Shown here one piece after another: positions 20,048-36,707 of a stretch of 64,000 nt of DNA (the first letter of the stretch is position 1; each line of letters begins with the position of its first letter). The notes under the pieces are model-generated. The model did no database searches. It had not been told where the DNA came from and saw nothing but the letters and a program-made list of their open reading frames with translations. The position numbers were made by a program, and so were the translations under genes. Origin of the DNA: Prescottella soli (GTDB taxonomy: Bacteria > Actinomycetota > Actinomycetes > Mycobacteriales > Mycobacteriaceae); assembly GCF_040024445.1 (NCBI RefSeq), contig NZ_CP157276.1:124001-188000 (forward strand). The letters run 5' to 3'.

Positions 20048-20817
20048 CATTGGCTGTTCGGGTGATCCCGTGTCTCGACGTCGACGCGGGTCGCGTCGTC
20101 AAGGGCGTCAACTTCGAGAACCTGCGTGACGCAGGCGATCCCGTCGAGCTCGCGGCGACCTACGACGCGCAGGGCGCGGACGAACTGACGTTCCTCGACG
20201 TCACCGCCTCGAGCGGTGACCGCGGCACGATGCTCGACGTCGTCACCCGCACCGCCGAGCAGGTCTTCATCCCGCTCACCGTCGGCGGCGGTGTGCGCAC
20301 CGTCGCGGACGTCGACCGCCTGCTGCGCGCCGGCGCCGACAAGGTCAGCGTCAACACCGCCGCGATCGCCCGCCCCGAGGTGCTGCGGGAGATGTCGGAG
20401 CGGTTCGGTTCGCAGTGCATCGTGCTGTCGGTCGACGCCCGCACCGTCCCGGAGGGGCAGGAGCCGACGCCGTCCGGGTGGGAGGTCACCACGCACGGCG
20501 GCAAGCGCGGTACCGGCATCGACGCGGTCGAGTGGGCGATCCGCGGCGCAGAGTTGGGGGTGGGGGAGATCCTGCTCAACTCGATGGACGCCGACGGCAC
20601 CAAGGCGGGCTTCGACCTGAAGATGATCCGGGCCGTCCGCGCAGCGGTGCACGTGCCGGTGATCGCCAGCGGCGGCGCCGGAGCGGTCGAACACTTCGCG
20701 CCCGCCGTCGAGGCCGGCGCCGACGCCGTCCTCGCCGCCAGTGTCTTCCACTTCGGGGACATGACGATCGGGGACGTCAAGGCGTCCATGCGTGCAGAAG
20801 GGATCACCGTCCGATGA
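20044..20817 (+). CDS. hisF: Imidazole glycerol phosphate synthase, cyclase subunit
   Basis: A 257-aa barrel enzyme that uses ammonia from HisH to form imidazole glycerol phosphate and AICAR. Hallmarks are [18 protein letters not shown] with catalytic Asp 11, [30 protein letters not shown] with the second catalytic Asp, and [11 protein letters not shown]. The ATG overlaps the upstream TGA and the stop overlaps the hisI ATG, so the three are translationally coupled. Confidence 0.97.
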
Positions 20818-21164
20818 GCCTCGACCCGGCGATCGCCGCCCGCCTCAAGCGCAACGAGGCCGGCCTGTTCAGCGCGGTGGCGCAGGAGAAGTCCACCGGC
20901 GACGTGCTGATGGTCGCGTGGATGGACGACGAGGCCCTCGCGCGCACCCTCGAGACCCGCAAGGGCACCTACTACTCGCGCTCGCGGCAGCAGTACTGGG
21001 TCAAGGGCGAGACGTCCGGCCACACCCAGTACGTGCACGAGGTGCGCCTGGACTGCGACGGCGACAGCGTCCTGCTGATCGTCGACCAGGAAGGCGCCGC
21101 GTGCCACACCGGCACCCACACCTGCTTCGACACCGACGTCCTGCTTGCCGCCGAGTCTGGGTAG
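20814..21164 (+). CDS. hisI: Phosphoribosyl-AMP cyclohydrolase
   Basis: A 116-aa zinc/magnesium enzyme opening the adenine ring of PR-AMP. The expected motifs are all present: [39 protein letters not shown] and the zinc ligands in [12 protein letters not shown]. There is no fused HisE domain, as usual in actinobacteria. It is the last his gene here; the backbone resumes at trpE 14 kb later. Confidence 0.96.
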
Positions 21165-21783: not shown

Positions 21784-22527
21784 TCAATCCGAACCGTTGG
21801 TCACCTTGTCCAGGAGTTGGCGGGCCACCACACGCAATTTGACATTCGACTCTTGCGACTTGCCGACCAGTCGGTCGAAAGCTTCCTGCGACGAGATGCT
21901 GTGCAGGGCCATGACGACGCCGATCGCGTGGTCGATGTCGGCTCGGGAGGTCAGCGCTTGCTGGAGGTTGCGAATGGAACGGACCGCCCGACGGTGGCGT
22001 TCGGCCTGCAGCAATGCGGTCACCGCGGCCGTGGTGAATACCTCGAGCAGCGATTCGTCCAGCGACCTGAAACCTTGGGGATCGCTGCTGTACAAGTTGA
22101 ACGAACCCTGCGTCTCATCCGACAGGGAGAGCGGAAATGCGATGAAGCTCTTGACACCGACTCGTGCGGCGGGTTCCTCCAGTTCCGGCCACAATGCACG
22201 CACTTCGTCTACGTCCGCCACCACGCTCCGACCCTCGCGAGCAGCTACGAGGCCGGGACCGCGGTTGCCGGCATACTGCGCGGCGTCGACTTCCCTCACG
22301 TTGGGATGGTTTGCGGCAACGGTTTCAGGGGCCGTTCCCTCATTCAGGAGTGTCACGCCTGCCAGGTCGGCGTCGGGAACGATTCGAACAGCGGTCTCAA
22401 CGAGATGCTGGAGAACCACGGTGAGTTCGTCGTATTCGTCCAGGACGTCGGACAACTGTTGCAACGCCTCGTTGAGATCGTCGAAGCGTTCGCCCAGTTC
22501 ATCGTAGGAGTCGTCCGGGTAGCCCAT
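21784..22527 (-). CDS. GAF-ANTAR regulator
   Basis: A 247-aa cytosolic protein. An N-terminal coiled segment (about residues 1-35) precedes a GAF sensor domain (about 40-165: TAVRIVPDADLAGVTLL, VGVKSFIAFPLSL). A C-terminal ANTAR RNA-binding domain follows (about 175-240: IDHAIGVVMALHSISSQEAFDRLVGKSQESNVKLRVVA). ANTAR proteins bind paired hairpins in mRNA and stop transcription termination. The ATG at 22527 overlaps the STAS gene's TGA by one base, so both are one unit. It probably links a small-molecule or redox signal to the stress regulon next to it; the ligand is unknown. Confidence 0.88.
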   Translation of the reverse strand: MGYPDDSYDELGERFDDLNEALQQLSDVLDEYDELTVVLQHLVETAVRIVPDADLAGVTLLNEGTAPETVAANHPNVREVDAAQYAGNRGPGLVAAREGRSVVADVDEVRALWPELEEPAARVGVKSFIAFPLSLSDETQGSFNLYSSDPQGFRSLDESLLEVFTTAAVTALLQAERHRRAVRSIRNLQQALTSRADIDHAIGVVMALHSISSQEAFDRLVGKSQESNVKLRVVARQLLDKVTNGSD

Positions 22528-22991
22528 CAGTGCACTCGCTCGTTGTCGTGCTCCGTTGGTTCGGACATCCCTCCGACGATCTCGGAGCCGACAGCCGATT
22601 CGACGGTCGGGTGACACGAGAAACGCCGGCGTGTCTCGGTAGCGGCGAGGGCGTGCTCGACGCCCCGCGTCGCGATGACGAGTTTGAAGTCGAAACCACG
22701 GCAGGAGGCGAGCTCCTTCGCCTCGATGAGTGCCGATGTGGCCTCGATGCTGACGAAGTCGACGCGCGACAGGTCGAGGACGATGGGGCTTCCCGCTGGG
22801 AGGCCGTCCGCGGAGGCTGCGTCGACCAAGTCGAGGTACGCATGGCGGAAACCGTCGGCCGTACTCATGTCAAGACTGGTAGCGAGCTCGATGACCAACG
22901 CGGCAGCTGGAAGCGGCGTCGGAGACCGCTCGTCAGTAGTGTGGCCGTCGGTCAGAATCAGGGTGTTTGCTGAAATAGAGAGATCAGGCAC
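22527..22991 (-). CDS. STAS-domain protein (anti-sigma antagonist type)
   Basis: A 154-aa protein with one STAS domain (about residues 25-125). The core SPIVLDLSRVDFVSIEATSALIEAKELA has the loop and following helix where antagonists are phosphorylated, with Ser at the SIEAT position. GFDFKLVIATRGVEHAL forms the next strand/helix. The GTG at 22991 is chosen because GGAGG lies 7 nt upstream; the frame opens six codons earlier. It is encoded next to the anti-sigma/sigma pair at 23.3-24.5 kb, so it may release SigF by binding the anti-sigma factor. Confidence 0.82.
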   Translation of the reverse strand: MPDLSISANTLILTDGHTTDERSPTPLPAAALVIELATSLDMSTADGFRHAYLDLVDAASADGLPAGSPIVLDLSRVDFVSIEATSALIEAKELASCRGFDFKLVIATRGVEHALAATETRRRFSCHPTVESAVGSEIVGGMSEPTEHDNERVH

Positions 22992-23275
22992 GCCATGCCT
23001 CCATCTCATCCGAACGCGTCCCTGGCGTTTCGGTTCGCCGGACCGGCGACGGAAGCCATGAGAGTCGTTTCCTGTGTGGCGACAGGCTGCTTGCTCAACC
23101 TTCTACGTTTCTAACACTGACTTGACCCTATGTACAGGTAGCGCGGCGCCGCCGCGGGGTTTCCGGTGACGGTTCGCGGGTCTTCCGAACCGACGCGTGG
23201 TTTCAGCGAGCCGTGCGGGATGACCTCGGCAGGCTCGTGAACGGAAGGGGGCGGTCCGGTGGCCGAGTGCGAGAT
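22992..23275. other. Gap between sigF and the STAS operon
   Basis: 284 bases, no gene seen. It must contain the promoter of the STAS/GAF-ANTAR pair unless they are read through from sigF; no SigF-type match was found here. Confidence 0.5.
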
Positions 23276-24049
23276 TCACCTCTCTGCCCGTTCTCGGAGC
23301 TTCGTGAGGGTGTCCGACAGGATGCGCGAGACGTGCATCTGCGAGACTCCGATCCGATCGGCGATCTGCGATTGCGTCTGGTTGCCGAAGAAGCGAAGAA
23401 GCAGAACGGTCCGTTCCCGTGCGGGCAGTTCTTCCAGGAGTACCCGAATTACCTCGTGGTCCTCGACGTCGGCCAGCGCGCTGTCGGTGTCGCCCAACAC
23501 TTCGGCGAGCGTCAGGGTGGTCTCAGTTCCGCTCATGCCCGCGTCCACCGAGATTGCCTGATAGCCGTTTGCCGCTTGAAGACCCTGCGCGACATCTTCG
23601 TCGCTGACACCCAACTCGGCAGCCATCTCGCGAGTGGTCGGGGAACGCCCCAGCCGCTGAGCCAGAGTCGAACTCACCCGGTTGAGATCCAGGTGCAATT
23701 CTTTCAAGTGTCTCGGAACGCGAACCACCCAACCTGCGTCCCGGAAATGTCGGCGTACCTCGCCCATGATCGTCGGTACCGCGAAAGCGAGGAAATCGGA
23801 TCCGCGGTCCACATCGAACCGATCCACCGCGTTGACGAGACCCAAGCTGGCGACCTGAACCAGATCGTCGAACGGTTCTCCCCGTTTGTCGAAGTGGCGC
23901 GCGATGTGTTCGGCCAGTGGCAGGCACCGGGTGATGATGTCCCGGCGCAGTTCCTGACGCGCCGGATCGTCCGGGTCCATCGACTTCAGGGATATGAATA
24001 TCGGCTTCACATCGCTGTATTCGTCGGGGCGATCGGCTGTGCGGCTCAC
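23276..24049 (-). CDS. Alternative RNA polymerase sigma factor, SigF/SigB group
   Basis: A 257-aa group 3 sigma factor. Region 2 is PLAEHIARHFDKRGEPFDDLVQVASLGLVNAVDRFDVDRG and FLAFAVPTIMGEVRRHFRD. Region 3 (LGRSPTTREMAAELGVSDEDV) and region 4 (LLLRFFGNQTQSQIADRIGVSQMHVSRIL) follow. This is the general-stress/sporulation type found in mycobacteria (SigF) and Bacillus (SigB). The GTG at 24049 is one base after the stop of the anti-sigma gene, the usual cognate pair arrangement. Matching promoters occur in front of its own operon and several neighbours. Confidence 0.92.
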   Translation of the reverse strand: MSRTADRPDEYSDVKPIFISLKSMDPDDPARQELRRDIITRCLPLAEHIARHFDKRGEPFDDLVQVASLGLVNAVDRFDVDRGSDFLAFAVPTIMGEVRRHFRDAGWVVRVPRHLKELHLDLNRVSSTLAQRLGRSPTTREMAAELGVSDEDVAQGLQAANGYQAISVDAGMSGTETTLTLAEVLGDTDSALADVEDHEVIRVLLEELPARERTVLLLRFFGNQTQSQIADRIGVSQMHVSRILSDTLTKLRERAER

Positions 24050-24050
24050 G

Positions 24051-24485
24051 TCATGACACCGCTACGATGGTGAACGAAATCGTCACTGTCGAGGATTTGC
24101 CGTTACCGTTGCCATGATGTCGATGCAGTTCCAAATCGTCGGTGAGTGTGCGAAGTACGTGCCAACCGAATCGACGCTCATATGGCCGGTCGACCTCCGT
24201 TCGGGTGGTGGCGACACCGGCGGAGAAGTTGAACGCGTCCGAGGACAGCCGATACTTGCAGAAGATCTCGGAGCCTTGAATTGCGATTCTGAAGAGAGTG
24301 CTGCACGCCTCGTCAACGGCGAGTCGCAGATCGGCGATCTGGTCGAGGCTCATGTTGCACTGCCCGGCCAGTGCTGCGGACACACCTCGAATCGGGGCCA
24401 GCTGCGAGGCTTCGGCCGGAGTTCGCAGTTCGATCACAGGTCCCAAGTTCTCGGACTTCCTCGAGGTTGCGGAGGTTTGAGTCAT
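24051..24485 (-). CDS. RsbW-type anti-sigma factor (histidine-kinase-like ATPase)
   Basis: A 144-aa protein with the HATPase fold of RsbW/SpoIIAB/UsfX: IRGVSAALAGQCNMSLDQIADLRLAVDEACST contains the N-box Glu/Asp region (AVDEAC). The C-terminal half has a relatively degenerate G-box (RRFGWHVLRTLTDDLEL). It should hold the downstream sigma factor inactive until a STAS antagonist removes it. The ATG at 24485 follows GCGAGGAATC. A GTTT-N16-GGGAAC promoter lies 80-100 nt upstream, suggesting autoregulation through the sigma factor. Confidence 0.86.
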   Translation of the reverse strand: MTQTSATSRKSENLGPVIELRTPAEASQLAPIRGVSAALAGQCNMSLDQIADLRLAVDEACSTLFRIAIQGSEIFCKYRLSSDAFNFSAGVATTRTEVDRPYERRFGWHVLRTLTDDLELHRHHGNGNGKSSTVTISFTIVAVS

Positions 24486-24560
24486 GATTCCTCGCTCCGA
24501 AGGTCGCCCGGGCACGAGGCGGGATTGCCGCGTGTTTCGATCGGCACCGACACCTCAGAA

Positions 24561-24586
24561 GTTCCCGCCGCCGGGCGCCTCCAAAC
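24561..24586 (-). promoter_or_regulatory. SigF-type promoter of the rsbW-sigF operon
   Basis: On the minus strand GTTT (24586-24583), a 16-nt spacer and GGGAAC (24566-24561), about 75 nt before the anti-sigma start codon. It supports positive autoregulation. Confidence 0.55.
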
Positions 24587-24627: not shown

Positions 24628-25845
24628 TCATCGACCGACACCGCCGGTCGAGTGGGGAAGTAGCTGCCCCGAGACCGTGCGGTATATCCGCTCGGTTTCG
24701 TCGGCAATGCGATCCCACGCGTAGCGTTGTACCGCCCGGTCCCGCCCGGCGTACCCGTACTGTTCCCGCCGCAGCGGCTCGCGCAGGAGGGTATGCACGG
24801 CATGCGCGAGTGCGTCGGAATTGCGTGGTGGAACATGGATTCCGGTGATACCGTCGACGACGGTGTCGGCCAGCCCTCCGACGGCGCTGGCGACCACCGG
24901 TTTCGAACACGCCATCGCTTCGAGAGGCACGATCCCGAACGGCTCGTACCACGGTGAGCAGACGACCACATCGGTCGAGCGCAACAGCCTGGGCATCAGA
25001 TTCCGCGGAACCCGACCCGGCATCGCCAGTCTCTCGGCCACCCCGAGCCGTGCGGCGAGATCCGACAATCTTCGTGCTTCGGCATCCTCCCGGACTGCAC
25101 CGTCGGTAGGGCCACCGGCAATCACGAGTTCGGTGTTCGCGAGCTTCGCGAGTGCGCGGATCGCGACGTCGAATCCCTTTCGGGGGACCAGGCGTCCGAC
25201 GCTGGTGAGCCGCGAGCGATTGCTACGACGAGTGCGTGGACCGTCCGGTCGGAACTCGTCGACGTCGACGCCACACGGCACCACGGCGATGCGTGAACGC
25301 GGAATGCCCATCCGAACCAGTTCGAACACCTCGTCCGACGATGTCGCGACGACTGCGTCAACACTCCTGCCGACCTTGCACTCCAGCGGGATCCGTTCCG
25401 GGGGGCTCGTATCGCCTGCTCCCTCGTAGCGTTTCTGCACGATGCCCAATGCGTGGAAGGTGTGGACGATCGGGAGATGACAGGTCCGTCCGGCCAGCCC
25501 AGCGGTCAGTCCGGACGTCCAGAAATGCGAATGGACGACGTCGAATTCCGAGTGGGAGAAATAGTCTCGAACTCGATGTGCGAACTGCCGCAGGTGCGGC
25601 AGCAAGTCGTCCTTCGGAATCGTCTCGACTGGTCCGGCCGACACGTGTATCACGTCGTAGCCCTCGGGTGCCCGCAGCCGTTCCGGCACCGATTCGCTCT
25701 CCCGGCGGGTGAAGACGACAACCTCGTGACCGTGTCGGACCAAAGCCGCGGACAAGGCGGCCACATGGACGTTCTGTCCGCCGGCATCCGGTCCACCCGG
25801 GGCGGCGATTGGACTGGCGTAATCCGAGACCATCGCGATCTTCAT
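24628..25845 (-). CDS. Family 4 glycosyltransferase (GT-B fold)
   Basis: A 405-aa retaining glycosyltransferase. The N-terminal domain begins MKIAMVSDYASPIAAPGGPDAGGQNVHV, with the GG loop contacting the nucleotide sugar, and has VVHSHFWTSGL. The C-terminal domain has SVGRLVPRKGFDVAI, the donor site and the EX7E motif in SPWYEPFGIVPLEAMA. The ATG at 25845 follows GGAAGG. It begins 62 nt after gvpK on the same strand, so it is probably expressed with the gas-vesicle operon. Acceptor and sugar are unknown. MshA-like enzymes share this architecture, but no mycothiol context exists here. Confidence 0.85.
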   Translation of the reverse strand: MKIAMVSDYASPIAAPGGPDAGGQNVHVAALSAALVRHGHEVVVFTRRESESVPERLRAPEGYDVIHVSAGPVETIPKDDLLPHLRQFAHRVRDYFSHSEFDVVHSHFWTSGLTAGLAGRTCHLPIVHTFHALGIVQKRYEGAGDTSPPERIPLECKVGRSVDAVVATSSDEVFELVRMGIPRSRIAVVPCGVDVDEFRPDGPRTRRSNRSRLTSVGRLVPRKGFDVAIRALAKLANTELVIAGGPTDGAVREDAEARRLSDLAARLGVAERLAMPGRVPRNLMPRLLRSTDVVVCSPWYEPFGIVPLEAMACSKPVVASAVGGLADTVVDGITGIHVPPRNSDALAHAVHTLLREPLRREQYGYAGRDRAVQRYAWDRIADETERIYRTVSGQLLPHSTGGVGR

Positions 25846-25907: not shown

Positions 25908-26249
25908 TCATTCGTCGGCGAGCAACGGTCCGAGCGGGCCCAGGTCGATGTTCAGATCCTCGGGCGTGAGTCCGAAATGCTCGCGCAGCTCCTCCATCTT
26001 CTCCTCGAGCAACATCAACGTCGTACCGATGCGTTCGATCTGCTCTTCGGACAGATCGCCGGCATCGACCCGGCGCAGGGCCTGCCGCTCCATTAGCTGA
26101 CGCAGCAGTTCGACCAAAGTGAGCACCAGCGCCACGAGGCCGCGCTCGACCGATTCGGGATCAGAATCGATCCGTTGTCGCAACGACGGACCGCGCTCGC
26201 GGAGCGAATCGTCCTCCGTGGTGTGCGATGGGTCGGGAATCTCGTTCAC
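25908..26249 (-). CDS. gvpK: Gas vesicle protein GvpK
   Basis: A 113-aa protein with the GvpK domain: VERGLVALVLTLVELLRQLMERQALRRVDAGDLSEEQIERIGTTL and EDLNIDLGPLGPLL at the C-terminus. It is a minor structural or assembly protein. The GTG at 26249 overlaps the upstream gvpS stop (GTGA). This is the last gene of the gas-vesicle set, as in Streptomyces, where the order ends in S-K. Confidence 0.93.
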   Translation of the reverse strand: MNEIPDPSHTTEDDSLRERGPSLRQRIDSDPESVERGLVALVLTLVELLRQLMERQALRRVDAGDLSEEQIERIGTTLMLLEEKMEELREHFGLTPEDLNIDLGPLGPLLADE

Positions 26250-26449
26250 GGGCCGCTCTCGGGCGTCCGGCCCGGCGAAGGCGTCAGCGCACTGACCGAG
26301 GAGACCAGCGTCCTGAGCGAGATGTGGACCATGTCCACGTCCGCGATCGAGAGGGTGATCTCGCCGGCGACCACCACGCCACCGCCGAGGACCCGATCGA
26401 GCAGATCCACCAGCGCGATCCGGCGATCCGGGTAGGCGGGAACGTTCAT
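26246..26449 (-). CDS. gvpS: Gas vesicle protein GvpS (GvpA superfamily)
   Basis: A 67-aa short GvpA-superfamily member: ALVDLLDRVLGGGVVVAGEITLSIADVDMVHISLRTLVSSV follows the GvpA/J/M/S beta-hairpin-helix pattern. It is probably a tip or nucleation component. The ATG at 26449 overlaps the gvpL TGA, and its own TGA overlaps the gvpK GTG. It is the smallest of three GvpA-fold proteins in this operon. Confidence 0.9.
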   Translation of the reverse strand: MNVPAYPDRRIALVDLLDRVLGGGVVVAGEITLSIADVDMVHISLRTLVSSVSALTPSPGRTPESGP

Positions 26450-27228
26450 CCCCCGCTCGATTCGACAAACGTGAACGAGTACGGCGGCCACGGACCTGTG
26501 AGGACGGTCTCGACCCCGTCGACACGAGCATTGATGTCGTCGACCGCCGTGGCGAATTCGTGGGTCCGGCGGTTGTCGACCAGATATGTCGCGTTGAGGA
26601 TTTCCCATGCCCGGTGAGGGGAGAGGGTCGGCGCGGTGGGCGGTTGCCGCGTCGCGGCGACTGCGAGATTCGCGAGTTGGGCGTAGATCTCGTCCGCCTG
26701 TCTCGCAGCAACAGACTCCGCGTCTCTGCGAGCAGCTGCTTGCGCCCGCCGGCGCATGAGATACGCCGTTCCTGAGCTCGTTCCGTTCTCGTCCGAGGTG
26801 TCACCGCGCTCGGTGGACTTGCCGCGATCGGCGTAGGCCCTGACACCCCATTCCGCTCGGTCCGCGATCCGATCCAGCGCGTCCGTGAAGTCGTTGACAT
26901 TCTCGCGCAACATGATTCGCACTCGTTCGTCGTCGTAGTAGACCGTCGCAAGGCGAAGGGGGACCGTTGCGCCGCCGGCACAGATGGCGGCTACGACTGC
27001 GTCGTGACGGCGCGCGGCGTCCGAGAGCCAATCGAGGTCTTCGAGATTGCGTCGCAGTGCGTCCTCACCATACTCGCCGAGATCGACCGACCCCACTACA
27101 GCGGTGAAGCCGCCGGCGGCCACCGTGCGCAACTGCTCGCCTGCTACACCACGGATTCCGGAGATCCCGTTGGGAAAGGAACTGTCGGTCGTGACCGCAT
27201 AGACCCACACGCCCTCATTCCTGGTCAC
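26446..27228 (-). CDS. gvpL: Gas vesicle protein GvpL (GvpF/L family)
   Basis: A 260-aa GvpF/L-family protein: VWVYAVTTDS at the N-terminus, LRRNLEDLDWLSDAARRHDAVV, VPLRLATVYYDDERVRIML, and WPPYSFTF at the end. These are the two ferredoxin-like halves of the family. It is an accessory protein thought to bind GvpA and help nucleation. The GTG at 27228 follows GAGGAG. The shared bases with gvpJ and gvpS show tight packing. Confidence 0.92.
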   Translation of the reverse strand: MTRNEGVWVYAVTTDSSFPNGISGIRGVAGEQLRTVAAGGFTAVVGSVDLGEYGEDALRRNLEDLDWLSDAARRHDAVVAAICAGGATVPLRLATVYYDDERVRIMLRENVNDFTDALDRIADRAEWGVRAYADRGKSTERGDTSDENGTSSGTAYLMRRRAQAAARRDAESVAARQADEIYAQLANLAVAATRQPPTAPTLSPHRAWEILNATYLVDNRRTHEFATAVDDINARVDGVETVLTGPWPPYSFTFVESSGG

Positions 27229-27625
27229 GGTGCTGCTCCTCGGCGATCGCCCGGTCGGCCTCTGCCGGTTGGTGCGAGGTGGTGAGGTCCGCAGCGGCGT
27301 GGTCGCCCGATTCCAGTGCCGCAATACGGTCACGCAAGCGCTGATTCTCCATCTCGAGGTCGTTGCTGCGCCCGGTGAGCCACGGGTCGTGCTCCCACCA
27401 GTTGATTCCGACCTCGCGAGCCGTCTCCAAAGAGGCGATCACCAATCGGAGCTTGATGGTCAGCAATTCGATGTCGAGTAGGTTGACGCGGATGTCACCC
27501 GCAATGACGATTCCCTTGTCGAGGACGCGCTCGAGAATGTCTGCGAGGTTGGCCGGTTCGTGTCCGGCGCCGCCGAGTCCCTGACTGTAGGGCTGTGGGT
27601 AGCCGGAGCCTCCCGCCCGCGTCAC
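27215..27625 (-). CDS. gvpJ: Gas vesicle protein GvpJ (GvpA superfamily)
   Basis: A 136-aa GvpA-superfamily protein of J type: NLADILERVLDKGIVIAGDIRVNLLDIELLTIKLRLVIASLETAREVGINWWEHDPWL, then a coiled-coil tail (NDLEMENQRLRDRIAALES). The tail and the WWEHDPW motif separate it from GvpA. The GTG at 27625 overlaps the gvpO stop (GTGA). It is a probable tip component of the vesicle. Confidence 0.92.
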   Translation of the reverse strand: MTRAGGSGYPQPYSQGLGGAGHEPANLADILERVLDKGIVIAGDIRVNLLDIELLTIKLRLVIASLETAREVGINWWEHDPWLTGRSNDLEMENQRLRDRIAALESGDHAAADLTTSHQPAEADRAIAEEQHRDQE

Positions 27626-27948
27626 GACCCCGAACCCTTCGAATGTCCCCGCGTGTACTGACGAATTCGCTGGTAGGACAACAGCATCCCGTCCAGATCC
27701 AGGACGACGGCGTAGATGGCCAGGACGTCGGACGACGACGGGATGCGGCGGTCCTCGAGGACCTCCACCTCCACGGACCATCCTTCGTCGCTCGGCGCGA
27801 CGGATACCGCGCCGAGCGGAGTTCGCCCGGTGAGTTGGGCGATCTGGCGGGCCGCTTCGGCGGCGGCCTGCGGGGCTGTCAGGTCGATACCCTCGCCGGC
27901 GTCCTCGCCGGCGTCGCGGGCTATGTCCGGGTCATGTGGTCCCGTCAT
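27622..27948 (-). CDS. gvpO: Gas vesicle protein GvpO
   Basis: A 108-aa protein with the GvpO domain: AARQIAQLTGRTPLGAVSV, then GWSVEVEVLEDRRIPSSSDVLAIYAVVLD and YQRIRQYTRG. GvpO is required for or regulates vesicle formation in haloarchaea. It lies inside the operon between gvpG and gvpJ rather than at the front as in S. coelicolor. The start is 3 nt after the gvpG stop. Confidence 0.9.
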   Translation of the reverse strand: MTGPHDPDIARDAGEDAGEGIDLTAPQAAAEAARQIAQLTGRTPLGAVSVAPSDEGWSVEVEVLEDRRIPSSSDVLAIYAVVLDLDGMLLSYQRIRQYTRGHSKGSGS

Positions 27949-27951
27949 GGC

Positions 27952-28206
27952 TCACTCCTGTCGACCGGCGTCGTCGGCACCCTCAGGGTGCGTCATCGAG
28001 TCGAGGATTTGTTTCTCGGCCAGCGCAGCCTCCTCCTCGGACAGTTGTCCCGACGATCGAGCGTCGTCGACCTCTTCCAGACGGCGCCGCAGGGCGGCCG
28101 GACTGTACATTTCCTCCTCCACCTGGCGGCGCACGATCTCACTGATCCACATCACCCCGCGAACAGGTGCGAGAGGAAGCCCGAATATTGCGGTGAAGAT
28201 GCCCAT
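27952..28206 (-). CDS. gvpG: Gas vesicle protein GvpG
   Basis: An 84-aa protein of the GvpG family: IFTAIFGLPLAPVRGVMWISEIVRRQVEEEM followed by a helical region RRRLEEVDDARSSGQLSEEEAALAEKQIL. It is an accessory protein for assembly. The ATG at 28206 is 2 nt after the gvpF stop; the frame is open upstream but lacks GvpG character there. Confidence 0.92.
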   Translation of the reverse strand: MGIFTAIFGLPLAPVRGVMWISEIVRRQVEEEMYSPAALRRRLEEVDDARSSGQLSEEEAALAEKQILDSMTHPEGADDAGRQE

Positions 28207-28208
28207 GC

Positions 28209-28988
28209 TCAGGTCCCGGGCGCTCGGGTCTTCGTGAAGTCGTAGGCAGCGAGGGGGCCGAGGACGGTGAGATCGACGCGATCCTGCCAATCCTGGGCCA
28301 GCTGCGTGACCGTCTTGTCCAGAGTGTCGATCTCGTCCGTGGCAATCAGCACGGCGACGGAACCGGCATCCTCCTCGTTGGTTGCGTCGCGGACCCGCAG
28401 TTCCTTCGCCACCGGCTCGAGCGCCTCGACCAGTCGCTGCGTGTCGTGGTCACGCTTGGCGGACAACGTCTGGCTGATGCGCTCGCCGAGCGCCAGTCGT
28501 TCATCGCGCGTGACGTCCTCCGGTTGCTCCCGAATGATCTCCCGGAGCCGGGCGGTCTCCTCGTCCTCGGACAGGATCTCGCGGAGGATGGAGTCCTCGA
28601 CGTATCGTCCCTTCACCACGTACTGGACGAGCCCCTCGAGCTGGTCGAGCGCCTGTTGGAACTCGTCCCGGTACGGTTCCAGGAGTTCGGACACGACCGC
28701 GTCGCTATCGGTCATCACGGCGCCGAACCGGAACGGCAGCACAGGTGCGACCATGGCCGTGGTGTCGAGAATCCTCGCGTGGGCCCGAAGGTCGTCCGGT
28801 GTCCCCAGTTGCGCATCCGGATCGATCTCGCTGACGAGTGCGGCAATGTCGTCGAACGTGACGGTGGCAAGCGGGCGTGGGGGTGTGCCGATGCCGGTCG
28901 CGTCCGGTTTCACCTCGACATCCGCCGGCACCAGGCCGTAGACGTATACCGCTGGGCGGTCGCCGTTCTCGGATTTCTGCTCTGTCAT
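28209..28988 (-). CDS. gvpF: Gas vesicle protein GvpF (GvpF/L family)
   Basis: A 259-aa Gvp[15 protein letters not shown] at the N-terminus, [55 protein letters not shown], and the C-terminal strand [18 protein letters not shown]. It is an accessory protein located at the gas-facing side in cyanobacteria. The ATG at 28988 overlaps the gvpA stop. It is a second GvpF/L paralogue in the operon, next to GvpL, as in other actinobacteria. Confidence 0.93.
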
Positions 28989-29386
28989 TGCTCGCTGCCT
29001 CCGCGGGATCGTCCTCGTGGCTGCTTCTCTCGGGCCTCCTCGACGCTGCCGAGGAAGTCGGCCACCTTCTCGCCGGCCGCCTCGATAGCGCCCTTCGACT
29101 TCGAGTGGGCGGCACCCTGCGTCATGCCCTCCACCATGTCCGGTAGGCCCTGCGGTTCGGAGCCGGAGATCTCCAACCGGTTGACGGCCTCGGCGAAACG
29201 CAGATATGTATCGACGCTTGCGACCACGACTCGGGCGTCGATTGTGAGGACTTCGATACCCACCAGCGACACGCGGACGTAGGCGTCGATGACGAGACCC
29301 TTGTCCAGGATTGTGTCGATCACGTCGGCGAGGCTGCTGGAACTCGGTCCACCACCTGCGCCTCCACCACCTTGCACCATGGTCAT
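28985..29386 (-). CDS. gvpA: Gas vesicle structural protein GvpA
   Basis: A 133-aa protein, the main shell subunit type. [57 protein letters not shown] matches the conserved GvpA core closely. A Gly-rich lead and a long hydrophilic tail ([27 protein letters not shown]) are typical of actinobacterial GvpA. The ATG at 29386 overlaps the SRPBCC gene's stop. There is one copy only, which makes the operon position of gvpA (third) notable. Confidence 0.95.
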
Positions 29387-30441
29387 CGGGTTGCCTCCTG
29401 CTTCCGGCGCCGCCTCGGCCGTGGCGCCACCGCGTCCTCGTTCTCGTCCTCGTGTTCGTCGTCGGACGGCTGCTCGTCTCCTCGCTCGTCATCGGCCGGC
29501 TCGTCGGAATCTTCCTCCGCGTTGTCGCGGTCGCGATCCTCCTCCTCTTCTTCCTCCTCCGGTTCTTCTTCGGGTTCCTCGAGTTCGTCCTGCTCTTCCT
29601 CGTCCCGGTCTTCGAGTTCCTCGAGCGGCACGACCTGACTGTCGTGGATCTCGCCGTGCCACCCCTCCACATCGTCCGGGTGCAGCACCGTTTGCGTCAT
29701 GACGTGACGCTGGAAGTGCTTGAGCTCCAATCTGATCCGACGTCCCTGGGCCCGCCAGATGTTGCCGGTCTTCTCGAAGAAGCCCTGTGGGTGGTACTCG
29801 ATGATCACCTGAACCCGCGTCAGGCCGGGTGCGAGTTCGTGGAAGGTGATGGCGCCGTCGAGATAACCCTTGTCTCCCTTGGAACGCCACACGATGCGTT
29901 CGTCGGGTACCTGTTCGACGATCGTCGATTCCCACGATCGATGCGACCAGAAGACCTGCCCCTTCCACCGCAGTTTCTCGTCCGAGACCTGCTCCACCTG
30001 TTCGAGTTTCTTCATGAACTTCGGGAAATCGGTGAACTGTGTCCATTGGTCGTACACGAGGTCGACCGGGGCTCCGATGTCGATCTGTTCGACGATATTG
30101 GTGATCTTGCCGCCCTTGCCCTTCCCCTTGCCTTTGCCTCCGGTCAGGGTCTCCTTGAGGTCGCGGCCCTTCTCCTTGATCTTGCCGGTGATACTTGACC
30201 ATCCGGCCTTCATCGCCGCCTTGGCCGGAGAATCGCCCTGCGCCAACCCCGACACCGCGGTGGCGAGCCCCCCTTTACCGCCGCCTGCGGCGAACGCGTC
30301 GAGGTTCCCCACCGTCGACGTCACGGTGTCGGTCAGTGACTTCACACCCTTCTCGGCGACTGCACCGACGAGGTGCTGAAGCGAGTCCTTGAGTTGGTCC
30401 GCACCGCCTGTCGGCTTCTTTTCTTCCTGGGTTGTGGACAC
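29383..30441 (-). CDS. Gas-vesicle-cluster SRPBCC protein with acidic tail (GvpZ-like)
   Basis: About 352 aa. An N-terminal Gly/Ala-rich helical segment (about 1-95) precedes a GK repeat. An SRPBCC domain follows (about 107-250: [46 protein letters not shown]). A long Glu/Asp run and a basic end (RPRRRRKQ) complete it. SRPBCC proteins accompany gvp genes in actinobacteria and I recall GvpZ as such; the name is tentative. The GTG at 30441 has GGGAGG 8 nt upstream; a GTG at 30450 overlaps the previous stop. It may stabilise or chaperone vesicle proteins; this is not known from sequence. Confidence 0.72.
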
Positions 30442-30446
30442 GCCGT

Positions 30447-31121
30447 TCACCTCCCGGTCCGGCGAACCGGTGCGTCGTCCGACGCGGCAGATCGTGCACT
30501 CGTCCGCGCCTTCGGTTGGGTGGTCTTCGATTGGGCGGCCTTGCGTGTTCGCGCCGTGCTACTGCGCGAGGAGGTGGATCTCGCCCGGCTAGTTGTGCTT
30601 CGGCGCCGTGGTGCTCCGGCGGGGGCGTTCGTGTCCTCCCGATCGCCTGCTCGGTCATCGTCGCCTCGATCGGCGGCTGCCGGGCCGTGCCGATGCTCGC
30701 CCGCGGTTTCCCTTTCCTGCGTGGTGTTCTCGCCGGACTCGGGTTCCTCGGTGTCCGCGTGTTCTGCCTCGGGCGCGAGCACACCCGTCAGTCCTTCGGT
30801 CAAACCCTCGGCTCCTTTGGTCAAAACTTCGGTCGTTCCTTCGATCCGACTCGTCAGAGCGTCGATCCGGTTGCTCGCTGCTGCGATCGCGGCGTTCTTG
30901 GCGGCGTCGGCCAATTCGCCACGCACGCTTTCCGCGAGCTTCGAGACCTCCCCGGAATCGCCGAGCCGTTTGACGCCCTCACGTACCAACTCCCGTGAAC
31001 TGCTCGGAAGCCGACCAGTCGCTCCCGCGCCGGCGAGCATAAGCGCGGCCTTCATCTTCTTTGTGCGACCGAGGAAGTAGCCGACCGCGACCGCAAGAGC
31101 GACTCGCATACCACCTTTCAT
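30447..31121 (-). CDS. First gene of the gas-vesicle operon, membrane-associated with basic tail (GvpY-like)
   Basis: 224 aa. An N-terminal hydrophobic segment (MRVALAVAVGYFLGRTKKMKAALMLAGAGA) is followed by a helical region (ELVREGVKRLGDSGEVSKLAESVRGELADAAKNAA). An acidic linker (AEHADTEEPESGENT) comes next, then a strongly basic Arg/Ser/Lys/Thr-rich tail (about 165-224). It opens the operon, with a SigF-type promoter 70 nt upstream. By position it corresponds to the poorly characterised gvpY-type genes of Streptomyces; that name is a guess. The basic tail could bind the acidic tail of the next protein or nucleic acid. Confidence 0.65.
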   Translation of the reverse strand: MKGGMRVALAVAVGYFLGRTKKMKAALMLAGAGATGRLPSSSRELVREGVKRLGDSGEVSKLAESVRGELADAAKNAAIAAASNRIDALTSRIEGTTEVLTKGAEGLTEGLTGVLAPEAEHADTEEPESGENTTQERETAGEHRHGPAAADRGDDDRAGDREDTNAPAGAPRRRSTTSRARSTSSRSSTARTRKAAQSKTTQPKARTSARSAASDDAPVRRTGR

Positions 31122-31192
31122 GACTCCTCCGTGGGTTGAAGACGCGTGTCCGGTGCCCTGTCGGTCCGGATCGCAGATGTCCTCCCGAGGGT

Positions 31193-31217
31193 TAGCCCAC
31201 CTGGCCCGGCGACAAAC
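31193..31217 (-). promoter_or_regulatory. SigF-type promoter of the gas-vesicle operon
   Basis: On the minus strand GTTT (31217-31214), a 15-nt spacer and GGGCTA (31198-31193). The first three -10 bases and the -35 fit. It lies about 70 nt before the first gas-vesicle-operon gene. It is the weakest of the five sites at the -10 end. Confidence 0.45.
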
Positions 31218-31557
31218 ACGAAATTGGAGGAAAAAATCATCAGGACACCATCACCGATCCACGAGCGCTACGCGGGACTGATCCCGGTCCCTCCAACGAC
31301 ACGCCTGACCACGACACGGGTTTCCCAGTTACGGGCACGGCGACGATAGTCGCTGTCGCCGTGGGCTTGATCGTGGTGGCGGTCCGCGTTGTGTGACTCG
31401 GTAGGTATCCGGACGTCAGTACTGGGACCCCGCCAGGGCAATCGTTTTCGCTTCGATTGCGACTCCTTTGCGCGGACGTCTGCGCGGCGAGTCGTGAGGA
31501 CTTCGCCTCTCGACCGGATCCGAGAGGGCGTCGGCGACCTGTGCGGTGTCGATGGAG
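31218..31557. other. Intergenic region upstream of the gas-vesicle operon
   Basis: About 340 bases with no gene I can support. Short open frames on both strands have no ribosome sites or recognisable sequence. It separates the gas-vesicle promoter from the second 51-aa hydrophobic protein gene. Confidence 0.5.
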
Positions 31558-31713
31558 CTAGTACCAGTACCGTCGGCCGCCGACTGCGCGTCCGCTGGCT
31601 CCGATGAGTGCAAGGACCACGCCGACTACGACCAGAACGATTCCGATGGTCCAGATTATCGAGACTCCTGTCAGAAATCCGATGACCAACAAGATCAATC
31701 CCAGGACGATCAT
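31558..31713 (-). CDS. 51-aa hydrophobic protein, copy 2 (DUF6131-like)
   Basis: Begins MIVLGLILLVIG, continues with IIWTIGIVLVVVGVVLALIG and ends GRRYWY. It is the same length and layout as the gene at 15823-15978: two short membrane segments and a Gly-Arg-Arg-aromatic end. The ATG at 31713 follows GTGAGGTGC, a fair ribosome site. It has a SigF-type promoter about 75 nt upstream. The codon pattern is good despite the small size. The function is unknown; induction in stress is suggested by the promoter. Confidence 0.78.
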   Translation of the reverse strand: MIVLGLILLVIGFLTGVSIIWTIGIVLVVVGVVLALIGASGRAVGGRRYWY

Positions 31714-35037: not shown

Positions 35038-35105
35038 AATTGCCGTCGCCACCGTTGGGGACCCGTGGCCGCGGCCTCGATCGGTCGCCCTGGGATGATG
35101 GGTGC

Positions 35106-36707
35106 ATGCGCGGCGAGTCCACCACCATCCCAGCAGCAACCTCGGCGTCTCCCGGCGGGGCAGCCCGACACGATTCGACGACCTCGCGTGAACAGTTCCG
35201 CGCGCTGGCCGTCGAGCATCGTGTGGTCCCTGTCATCCGCAAGGTGCTCGCGGACGCCGAGACCCCGCTGTCGGCGTACACCAAGCTGGCCGGCAGCCGT
35301 CCCGGCACCTTCCTGCTTGAGTCGGCCGAGAACGGCCGATCGTGGTCGCGCTGGTCGTTCATCGGCGCGGGCAGCCCGGCCGCACTCACGGTCTGTGACG
35401 GCGAGGCCGCCTGGTACGGCAACGTCCCCGTCGGTGCCCCGTCCGGCGGCGATCCGCTGGTCGCGCTCGGGCGCACACTCGAACTGCTGCGCAGCGAACG
35501 TCTCCCGGATCTGCCACCGTTGACCGGCGGCATGGTCGGCTTCCTCGGCTACGACGCCGTCCGGCGGATCGAGCGACTGCCCAGCCACGCGGTGGACGAC
35601 CTGCAGATCCCCGAGATGGTGATGCTGCTCGCGACGGATCTCGCTGCGGTCGACCATCACGAGGGCGCCATCACGCTCATCGCCAACGCGGTCAACTGGG
35701 ACGGCTCCGACGAACGGGTCGACGAGGCCTACGACGACGCGGTCGCCCGCCTGGACCGGATGACCGACGCGCTCGCCGCACCCGCGCCGTCGACCGTGTC
35801 GACGTTCGCCCGGACCGAGCCCGACTACCGGCGGCAGCGCACCACTGAGGGCTTCGGGATCGACGTGCGCCGACTCATCGGCGAGATCGAGGCCGGCGAG
35901 GCGTTCCAGGTGGTCCTGTCGCAGCGGTTCGAAATGGACTGCGCCGCAGAGCCGATCGACGTGTACCGGATGCTGCGGGCGTCGAACCCGAGCCCGTACA
36001 TGTACCTGGTGCAGGTCCCCGGCGCAGACGGGGAGACGGCCTTCTCGATCGTGGGGTCGAGCCCCGAATCGCTCGTCACGGTGAAGGAGGGCGTCGCGAC
36101 GACGCATCCCATCGCGGGCACGCGGTGGCGCGGTGCCACCGAGGAGGACGACATCCTGCTCGAGAAGGACCTGCTCGCCGACGAGAAGGAGAACTCCGAG
36201 CATCTGATGCTCGTGGACCTCGGACGCAACGATCTGGGGCGGGTGTGCGAGCCGGGTACCGTGAAGGTGCACGACTACCGGCACATCGAGCGCTACAGCC
36301 ACGTGATGCACCTGGTCTCGACGGTGACGGGCCGCCTCGCCGCGGGGAAGCACGCCCTCGACGCAGTGACGGCATGCTTCCCGGCGGGCACGCTCTCGGG
36401 TGCTCCGAAGGTGCGGGCGATGGAGTTGATCGACGAGCTCGAGCCGACGCGGCGCGGGATCTACGGCGGGATCGTCGGTTACCTGGACTTCGCAGGCGAC
36501 GCCGACACGGCGATCGCGATCCGCACGGCGCTGATCAAGGACGGCACCGCGTACGTGCAGGCCGGTGCCGGTGTGGTGGCGGACTCGGATCCCGTCTACG
36601 AGGACACCGAGGCGAGGAACAAGGCGATGGCAGTGCTCAGTGCCATCGCGGCAGCGCAGACGTTGCGGCCCTTCGGGGGTCGCTCGGAGGTGAACAGCGG
36701 TGAGTGA
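35106..36707 (+). CDS. trpE: Anthranilate synthase component I
   Basis: A 533-aa chorismate-using enzyme. The N-terminal tryptophan-sensing element [19 protein letters not shown] contains LLES, so feedback inhibition is retained. The catalytic domain shows [44 protein letters not shown], and [23 protein letters not shown]. It needs a TrpG glutaminase, which is not in this window. The ATG at 35106 is the most likely start; no Trp-rich leader peptide was seen before it. The next gene starts inside its last codons. Confidence 0.96.

Follow-up and report, generated by a model that had tools for sequence, protein, structure and literature searches.

An intact gas-vesicle operon beside a SigF-type sigma factor module in Prescottella soli

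Gas-vesicle (gvp) gene clusters have been described in Nocardia (PMC7600791), Streptomyces (PMC5839063) and, by citation, Rhodococcus. In Halobacterium, gvpA, F, G, J, K, L, M and O are essential, and loss of GvpN leaves small bicones (PMC9501494, PMC11445434). The gvp genes of Streptomyces coelicolor are induced by salt (PMC5839063), and 11 of 16 are up under acid shock (PMC2631018); the gas-vesicle Gene Ontology term shows enrichment in Rhodococcus sp. PDS1 under arsenite stress (PMC13118703), and one study of cyanobacterial hormogonia joins partner switching, sigma factors and gvp genes (PMC6495340). The role of gas vesicles in soil actinobacteria is disputed: Streptomyces and soil bacteria form them according to PMC9501494, soil bacteria have never been found with them according to PMC5839063, and S. 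coelicolor is not reported to make them according to PMC10344784. Here we analyzed a 64,000-nucleotide (nt) stretch of Prescottella soli (contig NZ_CP157276.1, positions 124,001 to 188,000; the window), which carries a ten-gene gvp operon next to a SigF-type sigma factor module. An earlier note on this DNA had presented a gvp cluster in a soil-type actinobacterium as unusual, which the published clusters do not bear out. The operon itself is of known kind; what appears to be new is its suggested wiring to a stress-type sigma factor.

The ten gvp genes are consecutive on the minus strand, from position 31121 down to 25908, in the order Y-Z-A-F-G-O-J-L-S-K (Table 1). Eight of them exceed the curated Pfam cut-offs, and these belong to five families: PF00741 for A, J and S, PF06386 for F and L, PF05120 for G, PF05800 for O, and PF05121 for K. 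The first gene matches no Pfam or NCBIfam family; its name, gvpY, is positional. With the chosen starts, the Z-A, A-F, O-J, L-S and S-K junctions overlap by 4 nt and J-L by 14 nt, whereas gaps of 2 and 3 nt are located at F-G and G-O; Y-Z has a 5-nt gap, or a 4-nt overlap with the earlier GTG start. Both the tightly packed one-strand set and the intact domains with tight gene coupling, as proposed in the earlier note, are confirmed by the coordinates and the Pfam matches, the strand being minus. PF00741 has three matches in the genome, all in one cluster, and a second gvp cluster was thereby rejected. The one-directional run of gvp families, this sole PF00741 cluster and ratios of nonsynonymous to synonymous substitution rates (dN/dS) of 0.08–0.34 rule out a chance assembly. 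Among actinobacterial gas-vesicle operons, this intact one belongs to the widespread Y-Z-A-F-G-O-J-L-S-K type.

Within that type the operon is an ordinary member, and gas-vesicle genes are common in its relatives. We compared it with 80 named actinobacterial loci, chosen from 538 as the most similar in GvpA; some of these are on cut contigs. The contiguous order YZAFGOJLSK, with gvpO inside, is present in 61 of the 80. That gvpO lies inside the operon, and not first as in S. coelicolor, had been noted correctly, but this position is too common to be unusual and was rejected as a peculiarity. In the GvpA tree, the window falls in one clade with Prescottella equi; the genus is Prescottella (the Rhodococcus equi group). 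gvpK is carried by 7 of 14 genus genomes and by 18 of 121 family genomes, 13 of the latter outside the genus. A plasmid search returned only diverged gvp clusters (25 records, each covering less than 80% of the query). In Rhodococcus koreensis and R. wratislaviensis (loci L052, L069 and L071), repeated A-F units surround Y-Z, which suggests duplicated or rearranged gvp clusters.

The dN/dS range given above was obtained pairwise against three genomes (G001, G002 and G006) and indicates purifying selection on all ten genes. For gvpA, the values are 0.083 (G001), 0.132 (G002) and 0.156 (G006), and for gvpS 0.121, 0.076 and 0.114, respectively; gvpA is therefore the lowest in the operon against G001 only, gvpS lying below it against the other two. 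The control gene hisF is much lower than the gvp genes (0.006 and 0.024). Against G001, the synonymous rate (dS) is 0.27 for hisF and 0.43–1.08 for each gvp gene, which indicates that the gvp island diverged more than its neighbor hisF. In a 71-row GvpA alignment, 39 columns are conserved in 95% of rows or more, and GvpA of the window agrees with all of them; the solved GvpA shells that this protein matches are 7r1c (E 4.3e-23) and 8gbs. A GvpA core so changed that assembly fails, which the earlier note had allowed for, finds no support in this comparison.

Counterparts of all eight members of the haloarchaeal essential set (A, F, G, J, K, L, M as S, and O) are present, each above its Pfam cut-off. 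GvpN gave no match over the cut-off (best 41.5 bits versus 266.8), similar weak matches occurring in 12 of 14 controls. The statement that all needed accessory families are present thus holds for the haloarchaeal essential set, but not for GvpN. PMC9501494 calls gvpN conserved in all clusters, although its own table shows none for S. coelicolor; GvpN was therefore not treated as defining a gvp cluster. None of the ten genes matches GvpC in the Pfam search, and no GvpC search of the genome was made. Judging from the intact genes, the operon would form gas vesicles: GvpA would build the shell, and J, S, K, L, F, G and O would nucleate and chaperone it. Since GvpN elsewhere elongates bicones into cylinders, the product is probably small bicone-like vesicles.

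Downstream of gvpK and on the same strand, sigF is present together with rsbW in all seven gvp carriers of the genus, with a gvpK-sigF distance of 565–9866 nt. The neighborhood of gvp and sigF/rsbW, already pointed out in the earlier note, is borne out by this linkage; together with the SigF-type sites before gvpY and rsbW, it makes the link to a stress sigma factor stronger than first noted. The genome encodes a second SigF (C1:333141), which shares 61% identity with the linked one. Among 49 SigF rows placed in a tree, those ten from the hisI-trpE interval group together with support of 100/99, and the possibility that the neighboring sigF is the ordinary family SigF was rejected. No hisF, hisI, trpE or gvp match was obtained in nine SigF stretches of 16–17 kb located elsewhere than in the island, eight of them belonging to family genomes and one to the same genome; RsbW is matched in all eight family stretches and not in the own-genome one. 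The STAS gene follows sigF on the same strand in all ten genomes with this sigF. Its product, which matched no solved-structure chain, may be the RsbW antagonist, and the GAF-ANTAR protein may likewise be linked to the sigma switch.

Promoter-like sites are conserved before both gvpY and rsbW. GTTT-N16-GG[CT]TA precedes gvpY in 7/7 genus gvp carriers, with a spacer of exactly 16 in upstream DNA that has otherwise diverged. Within 350 nt upstream of gvpY, the seven genomes share no word of 7 or more bases except GTGTTTG and, in the leader, CGATCCGG and its two 7-mers; the shuffle expectation is a mean of 0.003 shared 7-mers (300 shuffles, two-base blocks, relatedness ignored). Each of the seven gvp carriers has a single copy of a longer gvpY pattern, which is absent from the seven other genomes, and the backward control gave one match in 14 genomes; because the pattern was derived from these same sites, only the absence of further sites is informative. 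Before rsbW, again amid diverged upstream DNA, GTTTGG and GGGAA are present in 10/10 genomes (GTTTGG-N13/14-GGGAA), the GTTT-to-GGGAA spacing being 16 in nine and 15 in one, and the rsbW pattern occurs once in its own genome with no match in the backward control. The SigF consensus of Mycobacterium smegmatis is GTTT-N14-19-GGGTA (PMC4694148), and that for SigB homologues is GTTTAA-N12-14-GGG(A/T)A (PMC8346170). The -35 element and spacing of the gvpY site fit the SigF consensus, with one mismatch at the third position of the -10 element, and GGGAA of the rsbW site fits the SigB form. Between the gvpY site and the start codon, the leader (31122-31180, minus strand) keeps CGATCCGG[AG]CCG in 7/7 genomes and folds as a hairpin; a co-varying hairpin led nowhere, as only one of 12 predicted pairs shows a two-sided change.

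Outside the genus, in one genome of the same family (G074), 7.3 kb separate gvpK from sigF, both genes being on one strand; gvpY is preceded by GTTT-N16-GGGTA and rsbW by GTTT-N17-GGGTA. A SigB/F-like GTTT-N15-17-GGnWW was found before gvpY in 18/71 loci, the controls being 1/71 for the opposite strand and 1.7% for random windows. This survey counted from the gvpY homology match, not from the start codon, and misses sites where the match starts late: P. equi (L011) scored none, yet the site is present in its upstream DNA. Nine of the 80 loci, having no Y match, were dropped. In R. triatomae (L018), the site before gvpY reads GTTTGG-N13-GGGAA, like the Prescottella rsbW site.

Taken together, these observations favor, at a probability of roughly 0.57, an intact gas-vesicle operon that is stress-induced by the linked SigF and probably yields small bicone-like vesicles. 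The gvp operon, as part of a variable hisI-trpE island, would have its SigF-type promoter read by the SigF paralogue whose gene lies just downstream, and this paralogue would also drive its own rsbW-sigF transcript. RsbW would hold the linked SigF until the STAS antagonist, probably under stress or in stationary phase, frees it; without GvpN, the vesicles made at that time would be small and bicone-like. A bolder version, which we regard as improbable, makes gas vesicles one of the chief products of a stress module that is dedicated and horizontally variable, in which a specialised SigF paralogue with its own -10 preference for GG[CT]TA and an autoregulated rsbW-sigF promoter would be governed by a non-phosphorylation RsbW/STAS switch fed by GAF-ANTAR sensing; the small GvpN-free vesicles would then be a stress or dormancy organelle, not a means of flotation. 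We recognised nothing on gvp-sigF linkage in the literature by titles and abstract beginnings, most subscription journals being outside that scope, and the literature search for Rhodococcus equi with gas vesicle gave no paper. With the operon beside one sigma factor, one predicted promoter per gvp carrier, and sister genomes that have the sigma module only, the role of the vesicles is directly testable in this genus, where removal of one sigma factor can be tied to vesicle presence.

Several results weigh against control of the operon by the linked SigF. Among the 13 family gvp genomes outside the genus, sigF lies within 20 kb of the gvp genes in one (G074), at least 159 kb away on the same contig in four, and on another contig in four, and is not found in four (SigF matches at E 1e-80). 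In the survey outside the genus, 53/71 loci have no SigB/F-like site before gvpY, and a narrower per-locus pattern is present in 13/71, with no Nocardia locus among them. Within its own genome the gvpY pattern occurs once, but the backward control gives two matches, so this uniqueness is close to chance. Its -10 element, GG[CT]TA, lacks a G that is almost invariant in GGGTA; the site may therefore be read by a different sigma factor, for example the second SigF. The SigF-type site upstream of the DUF6131 gene is found in 0/4 copies outside the genus (no chance control). In three of the 14 genus genomes the sigma module is present although gvp is absent, which indicates that this module has other targets. 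Co-occurrence of gvp and sigF alone is weak (7/7 versus 3/7, Fisher two-sided P 0.07) and weakened further by the relatedness of the genomes, and the weight is thus placed on arrangement and promoters. In S. coelicolor, gvpA and gvpF of one cluster are down under acid shock (PMC2631018). Partner switching relies on an N-box Asn in the RsbW kinase and a phospho-Ser motif, DSSG, in RsbV; the RsbW row here reads AVDEACST and the STAS row FVSIEATSAL, seemingly without these motifs. The solved anti-SigF RsbW 8ih8, which reads AVDEVCTR at the N-box position, also has no such Asn, and release may not run via phosphorylation.

A different sigma factor, the second SigF or the housekeeping one, may control gvp, the gvp and sigF modules being fellow passengers in a variable hisI-trpE island; we consider this somewhat unlikely. 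As the earlier note had it, hisI (20814-21164, confirmed as PRA-CH) and trpE (35040-36707) do flank the operon, but other genes intervene on each side. In the 14 genus genomes, this interval holds neither module in four (G003, which is 79% complete, G008, G011 and G013), the sigma module only in three (G005, G010 and G012), and both in seven; an empty hisI-tautomerase site was found in four. The GC content at third codon positions (GC3) is lower in 15 island genes (0.68–0.88) than in 15 flanking frames (0.83–0.97; P 1.1e-5), a contrast flattered by the fact that several flank frames were first chosen by a GC3-based score. The gvp-to-sigF distance is nearly 10 kb in two genomes, and the -10 elements before gvpY and rsbW are unlike each other. 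Against this reading stand the conserved strand and order in 7/7 gvp carriers, the GTTT-N16 arrangement shared by the gvpY and, in 9/10 genomes, rsbW upstreams, and the recurrence of gvp and sigF as neighbors with such sites in another genus (G074). The distance from hisF to gvpK is ~64 kb in P. equi (G004), 53 kb in G009 and 5 kb in the window, which makes the hisI-trpE interval a large variable site in the genus.

The Gvp proteins may instead be made for a storage, envelope or signalling role, or the shell may never be gas-filled. The GvpN score below the cut-off and the statement on S. coelicolor in PMC10344784 speak for this reading, which is nevertheless unlikely given the full haloarchaeal essential set, the conserved GvpA columns without deviation, the lowest dN/dS for gvpA against G001 (gvpS being lower against G002 and G006) and the gas vesicles of Streptomyces in PMC9501494. 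That the cluster is decaying and silent is highly improbable: its patchy presence in 7/14 genus genomes fits, and the SigF tree places the gvp-less G005 inside a group of gvp carriers, a position that suggests gvp loss, but all ten frames are open, dN/dS is 0.08–0.34 and the promoter-like site is conserved.

On the same strand downstream of the operon, the genes encode a GT4 glycosyltransferase, the RsbW-like anti-sigma factor, the SigF-type sigma factor, the STAS protein and the GAF-ANTAR protein; on the other side lie DUF6131, tautomerase, MarR, LigB, PAS-ANTAR and trpE. The GT4 gene adjoins gvpK in G000 and G001, is ~3 kb beyond it in G004 and G009, and was not detected between gvpK and rsbW in G002, G006 and G007; its membership of the gvp unit is doubtful. 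In 3/8 family SigF stretches (L166, L168 and L171), rsbW-sigF likewise has a glycosyltransferase match upstream and on its strand, and the GT4 gene may belong with the sigma module, although the glycosyltransferase family is large. GTTT-N15/16-GGG[AT]A is located upstream of DUF6131 in 3/3 genus copies, one of them in a genome without gvp (no chance control). DUF6131 is matched in 6/101 loci searched, one of which lies on a plasmid of R. opacus, next to a gvp cluster; that the gene is an operon member is doubtful.

Table 1. Positions of the gvp operon, the sigma factor module and adjoining features in the window
Feature	Position	Strand	Remarks
Putative SigF-type promoter of gvp operon	31190..31219	-	GTGTTTG-N15-GGCTAACC (GTTT-N16-GGCTA); conserved in genus
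gvpY-like first gene	30447..31121	-	224 amino acids (aa); named by position; homologue in 71/80 named loci
gvpZ-like SRPBCC (Polyketide_cyc) protein	29383..30441	-	352 aa; acidic tail; PF03364 6.3e-21; alternative earlier GTG at 30450
gvpA, shell protein	28985..29386	-	133 aa; PF00741 1.4e-13; NF006872 and NF006874 above cut-off
gvpF	28209..28988	-	PF06386 8.3e-58
gvpG	27952..28206	-	PF05120 3.9e-21
gvpO	27622..27948	-	PF05800 3.2e-25
gvpJ, GvpA paralogue	27215..27625	-	PF00741 1.3e-16
gvpL	26446..27228	-	PF06386 9.6e-58
gvpS, GvpA paralogue, GvpM equivalent	26246..26449	-	PF00741 8.3e-14
gvpK	25908..26249	-	PF05121 1.3e-38
GT4-type glycosyltransferase after gvpK	24628..25845	-	PF00534/PF13439; possible ATG at 25911 overlapping gvpK stop
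Putative SigF-type promoter of rsbW-sigF	24561..24586	-	GTTTGG-N14-GGGAAC; conserved in genus
rsbW-like anti-sigma factor	24051..24515	-	PF13581; similar to solved anti-SigF RsbW 8ih8 (E 3e-10) and 8jzt (4.5e-10)
SigF-type sigma factor, genus-specific clade	23276..24049	-	Sigma70 regions 2, 3, 4; clade support 100/99
STAS (RsbV-like) protein after sigF	22527..23009	-	PF01740 1.3e-9
GAF-ANTAR protein, end of run	21784..22617	-	PF03861, PF13185; start uncertain
DUF6131 small membrane protein, upstream of operon	31558..31713	-	PF19626; SigF-type site at -104

Compared to the described systems, all eight genes A, F, G, J, K, L, M and O of Halobacterium salinarum have counterparts in the window; different from the window, where GvpN is below the cut-off, H. 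salinarum has GvpN and GvpC, with GvpD/GvpE as regulators (PMC9501494). The S. coelicolor clusters, O-A-F-G-Y-Z-J-L-S-K, share the gene names and a stress-responsive expression (PMC5839063, PMC2631018), but gvpO comes first and Y-Z lies mid-cluster. The Nocardia cluster gvpAFGOJLMK has the same core order, A-F-G-O-J-L-M/S-K, and, unlike the window, adjoins the nar nitrate-reductase genes (PMC7600791). In nearly all Nocardia loci compared here, Y and Z precede the core as in the window (L023 is cut short), whereas no sigF match was found within their fetched flanks. We know of no linked sigF at the S. coelicolor gvp clusters, for which no search was made. Like the mycobacterial system (PMC4694148; solved structures 8ih8 and 8jzt), the Prescottella module has a homologous SigF and RsbW with putative GTTT-type promoters; its SigF, however, forms a separate genus-specific clade at another locus, and the -10 element before gvpY is GG[CT]TA, not GGGTA.

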